Shown in pieces: positions 10,077-14,859 of a stretch of 64,000 nt of DNA. The notes beneath the pieces were generated by a model. It did no database searches. It saw only the letters and a program-made list of their open reading frames with translations, and was not told where the DNA came from. Made by a program: the position numbers and the translations under genes. The stretch spans positions 2,931,521-2,995,520 of the forward strand of contig NZ_CP144125.1 of assembly GCF_036429475.1 (NCBI RefSeq), in the 5' to 3' direction. How positions within the stretch are numbered: position 1 is the first letter of the stretch; every line of letters starts with the position of its first letter. Source of the DNA: Halalkalicoccus sp. CGA53. GTDB taxonomy: Archaea; Halobacteriota; Halobacteria; Halobacteriales; Halalkalicoccaceae.

Positions 10077-10244
10077 ATGAAGAGACTCGACTGCGCGATC
10101 GACGGCTGTCACGCGACCATCGAAGCCGAGAGCGAGGAGGCGGTCATGACCCAGGTCGGCGCGCACGCGGCCGAGGCCCACCCGGACCTGGAGCTGGACG
10201 AGGAGACCGTCGAGGGGATCCGATCGCAGATCCAGACCGTCTGA
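10077..10244 (+). CDS. DUF1059 small protein
   Basis: 55 residues, starting MKRLDCAIDGCH. The order C6...C11-H12, then an acidic EAESEEAVMTQVGAHAAEAHP segment with two further histidines, matches DUF1059 proteins, a small family of unknown function found in archaea and bacteria. The Cys/His residues suggest metal binding, but that is inference. It stands alone 89 bases after sucD and 77 before the next gene. The ATG was chosen because the family begins MKxxxC. Confidence 0.75.
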   Translation: MKRLDCAIDGCHATIEAESEEAVMTQVGAHAAEAHPDLELDEETVEGIRSQIQTV

Positions 10245-10321: not shown

Positions 10322-10681
10322 ATGGTGTCACGACACACGGAAATGGAGGGCACGGTCAGAAGAACTGGTCGGAGGAGCTTTCTGACGCTGGTCGGCCTGG
10401 CGGTCACCGCGAGTACGGCACAGACTGCAGCGGCTACGGAGCCGGCGGCATCGACGTCCGGTGCCGACCCGATGCTCGTCGACGCCGACCTGGAGCCCGC
10501 GGAGGCGCTTTTGGCCTACGTCGAGGCGGTCTACGGCGACCGACTTGGCGAGGACGACGGGGAGACGATCCTCGCGGGGATCGAGGGCTCGCTCGCCTCG
10601 GGCGACGCCTTCCGCGAGGTCGGCCTGGAGAACGACGACGAACCCGCCTTCTCGTTCTCGGCCTACAGGGGTGAGCAGTGA
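10322..10681 (+). CDS. Tat-signal small protein, AtzG/GatC-like partner of the following amidase
   Basis: 119 residues. The N-terminus has a twin-arginine signal (RRTGRRSFLTLVGLAVTASTAQTAAA), so export by Tat is predicted. The mature part (about 45-119) is one short helical domain: LLAYVEAVYGDRLGEDDGETILAGIEG, then DAFREVGLENDDEPAFSF. This layout, ending in a DxEPAxxF-like tail, resembles the DUF4089/AtzG and GatC small subunits that pair with amidase-signature hydrolases; this match is from memory and weak. Its TGA shares a base with the ATG of the amidase gene (TGATG), so the two are almost certainly made together. Unusual feature: the signal is on this protein and not on the amidase. Confidence 0.7.
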   Translation: MVSRHTEMEGTVRRTGRRSFLTLVGLAVTASTAQTAAATEPAASTSGADPMLVDADLEPAEALLAYVEAVYGDRLGEDDGETILAGIEGSLASGDAFREVGLENDDEPAFSFSAYRGEQ

Positions 10682-12054
10682 TGGTCGATCCCGAACTGCT
10701 CGTCGGATCGATCGACGAACTCGGCCGCGGACTGCGCGAGGGCGCGTTCACCTCGCGCGAGCTGACCGGGGCGTACCTCGAGCGGCTCGAGACGGTCGGC
10801 GAGGAGCTGAACGCGGTGGTCACACTCACGCGCGAGCGGGCGCTCTCTGGGGCGGATCGAGCCGATCGAGAGCTCGAAGCGGGCGAGGATCGAGGGCCGC
10901 TCCACGGGATCCCGTACGGGGTAAAGGACCTGATCGCCACCGAAGGCGACCCGACGACGTGGGGCGCCGAACCCTACCGCGAGCAGGTCACCGAGGAGGA
11001 CGCGGCGGTCGTCGAACGACTGGAGGAGGCCGGTGCGGTACTGCTCGGGAAGCTCGCGACGATCGAACTCGCCGGCGGCTTCGGGTACGACGACCCCGGT
11101 GCCGCCTGGACCGGGGCGACGCTCAATCCCTGGGACCGCGAGGCGTGGGCCGGCGGCTCCTCAAGCGGTCCGGCCGCGGCGACCGCAGCCGGTCTCGTCG
11201 GGTTCGCCATCGGCACCGAGACCTGGGGCTCGCTCACCACCCCGGCGGCGTTCTCCGGGGTGACAGCGGTCCGACCGACCTACGACCGGGTGAGCAGGGA
11301 AGGGGTTATGGCGCTCTCGTGGACCATGGACAAGGTCGGACCGCTCTGTCGCTCCGCAAGCGACTGCGAGACGGTACTCCGGGCGATCGCCGATCCCGAA
11401 ACCGAGGACGTCGACGCCTACGGCGTCTCCGGAGATCGCCCCCGGATCGCCGTCCCCGAGGGTGCGGGCGAGGACGAACAGGAGGGCGTGCGCGAGAACT
11501 TCGAACGAAGCCTGGGGACGCTCTCGGGGTTCGCAGAGGTCGAACGGATCTCCCTCCCGGAGCTCCCCTACGCGGCGATGGCGGGGACGATCATCGACGG
11601 CGAGGCCGCGGCGGCGTTCGACGGCCTCATCGAGAGCGGTGACGTCCACGACCTGGCCGACCCGGTCCACACGCTCGGGAGCTATCGGGCGAGCACCGTA
11701 CTCGCACGCGACTACATCAACGCCAATAGAGTGAGGGCGATCGCCCAGCGGGAACTGGACGCGCTGCTCGCCGAGTACGACGCGCTCGTAACGCCGGCGC
11801 GGTCGTCGGTGGCGAGCAGGGTCGGGGAGTCGATGGGCGAGTTCTTCGGGGAGTTCGCGACGCCGTCGGTGAACGCGGCGGCGAACGTCACCGGCCTTCC
11901 CGGAGTCACGGTGCCGAACGGGTTCGCGGAGGACGGGTTACCGACGGGTGTCGAGGTCGTCTCCCGGGCCTGGGAGGAGTCCGCGGCCCTCGCGGTCGCC
12001 TGTGCGTTCGAGCGGCGGTCCGAGCGGCCGCCGTACGCCGACCTGCTCGGGTAG
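10681..12054 (+). CDS. Amidase-signature family hydrolase
   Basis: 457 residues from ATG 10681; a GTG three bases earlier is also possible. Catalytic residues of the Ser-cisSer-Lys triad are in place: K82 in GVKDLI, S160 in WAGGSSSG, nucleophile S184 in the segment GTETWGSLTTPAAFSG. The canonical GGSI is WGSL here, and the usual GSIRxP arginine is replaced by threonine (GSLTTP), so the substrate pocket differs from GatA. Family members hydrolyse amides, carbamates or ureides. No signal peptide is visible; the preceding coupled gene encodes a Tat-signal protein that may be its small subunit. Confidence 0.88.
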   Translation: MVDPELLVGSIDELGRGLREGAFTSRELTGAYLERLETVGEELNAVVTLTRERALSGADRADRELEAGEDRGPLHGIPYGVKDLIATEGDPTTWGAEPYREQVTEEDAAVVERLEEAGAVLLGKLATIELAGGFGYDDPGAAWTGATLNPWDREAWAGGSSSGPAAATAAGLVGFAIGTETWGSLTTPAAFSGVTAVRPTYDRVSREGVMALSWTMDKVGPLCRSASDCETVLRAIADPETEDVDAYGVSGDRPRIAVPEGAGEDEQEGVRENFERSLGTLSGFAEVERISLPELPYAAMAGTIIDGEAAAAFDGLIESGDVHDLADPVHTLGSYRASTVLARDYINANRVRAIAQRELDALLAEYDALVTPARSSVASRVGESMGEFFGEFATPSVNAAANVTGLPGVTVPNGFAEDGLPTGVEVVSRAWEESAALAVACAFERRSERPPYADLLG

Positions 12055-13338: not shown

Positions 13339-14859
13339 ATGCCGATCCGCCCGCCGACCGAGACGGACCTGCGCGAGTTCGGGGAGCGACTCCACCTCGA
13401 CCTGCGAGAGGAGGAGCTCGCCGAACTCGCCGAACTGGCCGCCGACCAGCTCGTGGACTACGAGACGGTCGCCTCCTACACGCCGACGGTGCGGGCGGAC
13501 GGCGAGGCGGTCCGCCCGCGGAGCGCCGGCCTGCGCGTTCCGTCGGTGGAGAACCCGAAGAACGCGTGGGTCTCGCGCTGTACGGTGGAGGGGGACGAGG
13601 AGGGCCCGCTCGCCGGCTGGGAGGTCGCCGTGAAGGACAACGTTAGCGTCGCGGGCGTCGAGATGACCTGCGGCTCGCGCGTACTCGAGGGCTACGTGCC
13701 CGACGCCGACGCGACCATCGTCACCCGGCTGCTCGACGCCGGCGCGACCGTCGTCGGGAAGACGAACATGGACGACATGGCGATGACGACCACCGGCCAC
13801 AGCGCGTTCGGCCCCGTGCTCCACCCCGAGAGCGAGGACCACCTCGCGGGCGGCTCCAGCGGGGGGAGCGCTGTCGTCGTCGCGACCGGCGAGGTCGACG
13901 CGGCGATCGGCACCGACCAGGGCGGGAGCGTCCGTCTCCCGTCGGCGTACTGCGGGATCGTCGGCCACAAACCGACACACGGGCTGATACCCTACACGGG
14001 CTGTGTGGGCCTCGAACACACGATCGACCACCCCGGGCCGATGGGGCCCGACGTGGAGACGGTCGCCCGCCTTCTCACGGTGTTCTCCGGCGACGGGCCT
14101 GAGGGGGCCGCGGCCGACGACCGCCAGCCCCGGTCGATCCCCGACGAGCGGTACCACGATCTAGAGGGGGAGGTCTCGGAACTACGGATCGGCGTCCTCC
14201 GCGAGGGGTTCGACCGGCCGGACGCCGATCCCGCGGTCCTCGACCGGGTTCGGGCGGCGATCGACCTGCTCGCCTCGGCCTGCGGAGCGATGGAAGAGGT
14301 CTCCGTGCCGATGCACGCCGACGCGCGCGCGATCCACTCGGTCTGTGCCTCGGAGGGGCTGGTCGCCGCGATGGCCGGCGAGGGCCTCGGCCACGGTCGC
14401 CGGAAGTGGTACGACACGACCTGGGTCGACGCGTTCGGGAAGTTCCGCCGGACCGCCGGCGGCGAGTTCCCGGCAGCGCTCAAGCGGTCGCTGCTCGTCG
14501 GGGCGTACGCCGCCGAGAAGTACCACGCCCGCTACTACGCCCGCGGGATGAACCTCGTCCTCGACCTGACCGAGGGGTACGACGCGCTGTTCGAGGAGGT
14601 AGACCTGCTCGCGATGCCGACGACGACGCGGACCGCACCCGAACACGACCCCGAACGGAGCGAGTTCGACCGGCTCCGCGACGGACGGGAGGCGGCCAAC
14701 ACCGCCGCGTTCAACCGGACCGGCCACCCGGCGATCTCCGTTCCTGCGGGGGCGGTCGACGGCCTCCCGGTCGGGCTGATGCTCGTCGGTCCCGAGTTCG
14801 AGGACGCGAGGGTGCTCGAGGCAGGCTACGCGCTGCAACGGATCCGTTCGGACGGCTGA
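13339..14859 (+). CDS. Amidase-signature family hydrolase (second copy)
   Basis: 506 residues. Triad is complete: K99 (VAVKDN), cis-Ser S173 (GGSSGGSA), nucleophile S197 in the canonical GTDQGGSVRLPSAYCG. The N-terminal 60 residues form an extra helical part (EELAELAELAADQLVDYETV), as in bacterial/archaeal broad-spectrum amidases. The longer, canonical signature separates it from the amidase at 10.7 kb. It likely releases ammonia from aliphatic or aromatic amides in the cytosol. Convergent with the threonine-synthase-like gene, 4 bases apart. Confidence 0.9.
   Translation: MPIRPPTETDLREFGERLHLDLREEELAELAELAADQLVDYETVASYTPTVRADGEAVRPRSAGLRVPSVENPKNAWVSRCTVEGDEEGPLAGWEVAVKDNVSVAGVEMTCGSRVLEGYVPDADATIVTRLLDAGATVVGKTNMDDMAMTTTGHSAFGPVLHPESEDHLAGGSSGGSAVVVATGEVDAAIGTDQGGSVRLPSAYCGIVGHKPTHGLIPYTGCVGLEHTIDHPGPMGPDVETVARLLTVFSGDGPEGAAADDRQPRSIPDERYHDLEGEVSELRIGVLREGFDRPDADPAVLDRVRAAIDLLASACGAMEEVSVPMHADARAIHSVCASEGLVAAMAGEGLGHGRRKWYDTTWVDAFGKFRRTAGGEFPAALKRSLLVGAYAAEKYHARYYARGMNLVLDLTEGYDALFEEVDLLAMPTTTRTAPEHDPERSEFDRLRDGREAANTAAFNRTGHPAISVPAGAVDGLPVGLMLVGPEFEDARVLEAGYALQRIRSDG

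Follow-up and report, generated by a model that had tools for sequence, protein, structure and literature searches.

Can an enzyme leave the cell on a signal carried by its partner rather than on one of its own? Two overlapping genes on the forward strand of Halalkalicoccus sp. CGA53 raise this question. They lie in a 64,000-nucleotide stretch of contig NZ_CP144125.1 (referred to here as the window, with positions counted from its first letter), the first encoding a protein of 119 residues (10322-10681, stop included) and the second an amidase-signature enzyme of 457 residues (10681-12054) with no signal peptide. The small gene, labelled "hypothetical protein" in public records, is supported by its open reading frame, its homologues and dN/dS. 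We consider that the two genes encode one enzyme and that the amidase is exported by Tat hitchhiking on its small partner, a reading to which we assign a probability of roughly 0.8, the export itself being predicted from sequence.

The gene pair in the window

Residues 1-38 of the small protein (10322-10435) form a predicted Tat signal peptide. The twin-arginine motif RRSFL occupies residues 17-21 (10370-10384), with the two arginines at residues 17-18 (10370-10375) in the context TGRRSFLTLVG; residues 17-28 read RRSFLTLVGLAV. Consistent with a Tat substrate, the motif lies near the N-terminus, and the stretch after it is free of charge and moderately hydrophobic. An AxA site (AAA) is found at residues 36-38, and inspection of the sequence revealed no lipobox cysteine in the signal. 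An alternative start at ATG 10343 would leave the signal intact. Our rule for Tat signals was passed by only 1.8% of shuffles of the protein's 42-residue stretch (same residues) and by all 60 of the small proteins from split pairs that were called Tat, and the Tat signal originally noticed from the letters of the window is thus upheld. Dual localisation via an internal ATG (codon 50), which would give a signal-less small subunit, was considered and rejected, as this ATG is missing in L002. The small subunit of Halapricum desulfuricans (L325:3804-3992) is annotated from an internal start as a protein of ~62 residues, and the upstream Tat signal is dropped from the record. Directly ahead of the pair in the window is a small Cys/His-containing open reading frame (10079-10243, forward strand, MKRLDCAIDGCHATIEAE...) with no Pfam match.

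The body of the small protein (10496-10678) is predicted to comprise two helices plus an extended tail that terminates in DEPAFSFSAYRGEQ, based on alignment, links to PF13318 and gatC, and the fold of homologues. The sequence-only reading had described it as AtzG/GatC-like, a likeness that is undetectable from the window protein alone, which as a single query (P0001) had no match in Pfam, NCBIfam or the PDB, and that emerges at the level of the family: the AtzG-like model PF13318 matches four of 24 family members (small-domain sequences) with a best E of 1.7e-5, and 0.006 is the best E among gatC models. The family profile gave only chance-like matches against the PDB. In the window, as for the homologues, the small gene adjoins the gene of its amidase partner. 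AtzG is non-catalytic, AtzE is insoluble without it and their complex is obligate (PMC6219798).

That the amidase belongs to the amidase-signature family is clear from its match to Pfam Amidase (PF01425; E 1e-81, 275.6 bits against a curated cut-off of 27) and from its Ser-cisSer-Lys triad, comprising the catalytic Lys82 (codon 10924-10926), the cis-Ser160 in GGSSSG (11158-11160) and the nucleophile Ser184 in TWGS (11230-11232), all three invariant in alignments. It falls well below the NCBIfam equivalog cut-offs for both AtzE (220.4 of 461 bits) and GatA (TIGR00132; 219.9 of 481.1 bits). No N-terminal signal was found on the amidase, as had been claimed at the outset. Approximately 1.3 kb downstream, the window encodes a second amidase-signature enzyme (13339-14859, forward strand; NCBIfam PRK07235, 535.5 of 545 bits), which has no signal and carries an N-terminal extension, maybe GatC-like, on the same chain.

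The two genes meet in a GTGATG overlap (10678-10683), in which the small gene's TGA (10679-10681) contributes its third base as the A of the amidase ATG (10681-10683), giving TGATG. The amidase had been said to start one base into the stop codon; the overlap is real, and the start is in fact the last base of that codon. A GTG at 10678 overlaps as well, and GGGGTGAG just 5' of the overlap could serve as the Shine-Dalgarno sequence of the amidase. Against two congeners, dN/dS was 0.31 and 0.48 for the small gene and 0.11 and 0.15 for the amidase; purifying selection acts on both. Across five haloarchaea we found no conserved gene neighbourhood that would name a substrate.

To model the complex we used L067, in which small gene and amidase share one frame, so that reading through the stop yields a single chain with 43% identity to the joined window pair. 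AlphaFold returned a pLDDT of 91.7 and a pTM of 0.92 for this chain, the two helices of the small part scoring ~91-96 and the linker being disordered, while for the natural fusion L222 the values were 95.1 and 0.94 and the connecting tail was ordered. Helices and tail of the small part are seen in both homologue models, their packing being read from the confidence scores. A Foldseek search with the L067 model retrieved GatA structures first, with AtzE (6c62) and plant FAAH close. Small partner and amidase are confidently predicted to pack together in homologues, and a corresponding complex would be expected in this organism.

Distribution of the pair and placement of the signal

A small-protein search spread evenly over the haloarchaeal class found true homologues adjoining an amidase in 13 genomes, and two further ones came from searching relatives. 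Sixteen distinct haloarchaeal pairs, including one from a contig scan, were classified. An RR signal is present on the small protein in 16/16 and on the amidase in 0/16, and the genes overlap with a start offset of -1 or -4 in 14 of the 16. A separate amidase search of the class sample found the enzyme in 12 of 384 genomes, representing eight of 85 genera, a patchy spread that suggests horizontal transfer. All 12 of these genomes were also recovered by the small-protein search, with the small gene next to that of the amidase, so the co-occurrence check proposed with the initial reading came out positive. TatC had three matches in the window's genome and was present in all 14 other genomes tested.

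To place the pair in a broader context, 84,980 species genomes were scanned with an amidase alignment, followed by phylum-level searches, which recovered relatives from Acidobacteriota, Bacteroidota, Planctomycetota, Chloroflexota, Gemmatimonadota and others. After removal of identical amidases, 292 were classified, revealing three arrangements: split genes without a signal (21), split genes with a Tat signal on the small protein only (66, plus two with RK), and a single chain of signal, small domain and amidase (182 fused proteins, invariably in this order). In the remaining 21 the small gene was undetected, some of them having a shortened or overlapping small open reading frame missed by the profile and some lying at a contig end. 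The signal sits on the small protein, and the amidase is without one, in the split pairs that carry a signal (n = 68); none of the 89 split amidases passed the Tat rule or had a strongly hydrophobic N-terminus. The two RK cases, L054 and L085, are Eremiobacterota small proteins in which RK replaces RR and the stretch after it is ordinary and Tat-like; the comparable Eremiobacterota proteins L078, L081 and L082 carry RR. In the Chloroflexota loci L208, L209, L211 and L212 a short open reading frame ending TEPPT(F/V)(F/Y)RP or similar precedes the amidase, and these may be reduced small subunits of which only the last part is kept.

Signal type in split and fused forms

A folded partner could not be carried along if the small protein had a Sec signal, whereas a fused protein could take either route. 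Hitchhiking thus leads to the expectation of Tat-only signals in split pairs and of Tat or Sec signals in fused proteins. By the automatic rule, signal-bearing split pairs divided 60 Tat to two others (L054 and L085, both RK), with no clear Sec signal in any split pair, and fused proteins divided 94 Tat to 76 Sec, membrane or lipoprotein (n = 170); Fisher's test gave 7e-11 with relatedness ignored. The automatic rule overlooked weak Tat signals and counted as Tat some RR upstream of the start codon. Corrected by hand, the ratios are 66:2 for split and 100:81 for fused, the latter becoming ~95:86 once RR upstream of the start codon is removed.

The contrast in signal type rests on few independent events, as split and fused forms switched only about twice on a FastTree of the amidase domains, in which they are near-cleanly apart (support 100). 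A test of independent pairs had two pairs only and no power. Counting changes along branches, the eight Tat/Sec changes over 49 units of fused branch length lead to an expectation of 3.9 over the 24 units of split-Tat branches, on which none was observed (P ~0.02). A Tat-small-amidase fusion within the split clade, L271 (G459:C51), is sister to the split pair L140 (support 100) and is a separate fusion event. The 21 signal-less split pairs, all bacterial, form a single monophyletic clade surrounded by Tat-bearing pairs, which fits a return to the cytosol, a direction that we infer.

Proposed export by hitchhiking, its alternatives and known systems

In our proposal the small protein would serve the amidase as a structural partner of the AtzG/GatC type, binding it via two helices and an extended tail. 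Coupled translation would produce both subunits in step, so that they could fold together in the cytosol. The small protein's twin-arginine signal would be recognised by the Tat translocase, which would move the folded complex across the membrane, the amidase thereby leaving the cell without a signal of its own; the signal would then probably be cleaved. Outside, the complex would act as an amide hydrolase, most likely in nitrogen or carbon scavenging from small amides or peptides. For the window pair we infer export, signal cleavage and substrate alike. Hitchhiking had been raised as a possibility in the sequence-only reading, and it gains support from the fusions, from the 68 split pairs with the signal on the small side and from the confident homologue models. 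The natural fusions of signal, small domain and amidase indicate that small part and enzyme make up a single protein located on one side of the membrane. Weighing against it are the two pairs with RK, the small number of split/fused switches behind the contrast in signal type, and the 21 signal-less split pairs and 21 amidases with no detected small gene, since part of the family manages with no export or, it would seem, with no partner. We think it likely, if with somewhat less assurance than for hitchhiking itself, that an obligate folding partner of the AtzG/GatC type doubles as the export ticket, such that only partner-bound amidase leaves via Tat. As part of the same reading, the partner would have been split, fused, given or stripped of a Tat signal over time, and yet the signal is always on the partner's side.

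The alternative that survives best, although we regard it as distinctly the less probable outcome, is that the complex forms and the Tat signal remains uncleaved as an anchor, leaving the complex held at the membrane, either on its outer face or not fully translocated. A strong cleavage site cannot be proved, and tethered forms are widespread in the family: membrane or lipoprotein signals occur in many of the fused relatives, and a lipobox follows the Tat signal in the split small proteins L140, L177, L216 and L218, whose pairs may be membrane-tethered lipoproteins. The haloarchaeal small proteins, however, lack the lipobox cysteine and several have Ala-rich AxA sites. Anchoring is in any case a variant of the main explanation, as hitchhiking is needed either way.

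It is highly improbable that the complex stays in the cytosol, with an RR stretch that arose by chance or is the defunct remnant of a fused ancestor. The signal-less clade does indicate that cytosolic forms exist, but all 16 haloarchaeal small proteins have retained RR and a hydrophobic stretch in an otherwise divergent N-terminus, and the low pass rate of the shuffles and the purifying selection also speak against such a remnant. Equally improbable is that the small protein is exported alone and the amidase works in the cytosol, with the overlap mere operon compaction: the amidase has no signal and overlaps are frequent in compact genomes, but the natural fusions hold both parts on one chain behind the signal, the small protein's family is that of an obligate amidase partner, and both genes occur in 12/12 amidase genomes.

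In the open-access literature we found no previous account of an amidase-signature enzyme that hitchhikes or is otherwise linked to Tat, in agreement with the initial remark that such export is not known for these enzymes, and as far as that literature shows this predicted Tat hitchhiker is new for the family. Hitchhiking through Tat would then reach beyond cofactor enzymes to a family of cofactor-free hydrolases, and a class of subunit familiar from the amidation of tRNA and the breakdown of triazines would have been reused for export. Annotation will probably place the amidase in the cytosol, as it has no signal of its own. The natural set of split cytosolic, split Tat, fused Tat and fused Sec forms offers a way to ask what Tat requires of its passengers.

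Among known systems, AtzG-AtzE (the 1-carboxybiuret hydrolase of Pseudomonas sp. ADP) is similar in having a gene for a small non-catalytic partner just before that of an amidase-signature enzyme, in the PF13318 link and in the closeness in fold of AtzE 6c62 to the L067 model. It differs in that descriptions of it present a metabolic complex and note no export signal, and the window amidase is far under the AtzE cut-off. GatCAB has the same type of small helical partner in GatC, and GatA heads the fold matches; however, GatCAB performs tRNA amidation in the cytosol and needs GatB, and the window amidase is far under the TIGR00132 cut-off. AmiA and AmiC are likewise Tat-exported and called amidases, but they are unrelated zinc N-acetylmuramoyl-L-alanine amidases of peptidoglycan, each with its own signal. 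The single-chain exported amidases of the subfamily (L088, L089, L100 and others, from Acidobacteriota, Gemmatimonadota, Bacteroidota and Planctomycetota) have the same small domain and amidase behind a leading signal; being single polypeptides, and frequently bearing a Sec or lipoprotein signal, they have no need of hitchhiking. The established Tat hitchhikers, namely Ni-Fe hydrogenase, formate dehydrogenase and PaoABC, bear out the earlier statement that two-subunit enzymes can be exported in this manner, with a twin-arginine signal on one partner and a signal-less partner carried along (PMC10924467, PMC4273604); those are cofactor enzymes, whereas here the passenger is a cofactor-free hydrolase and the signal lies on a small structural subunit.
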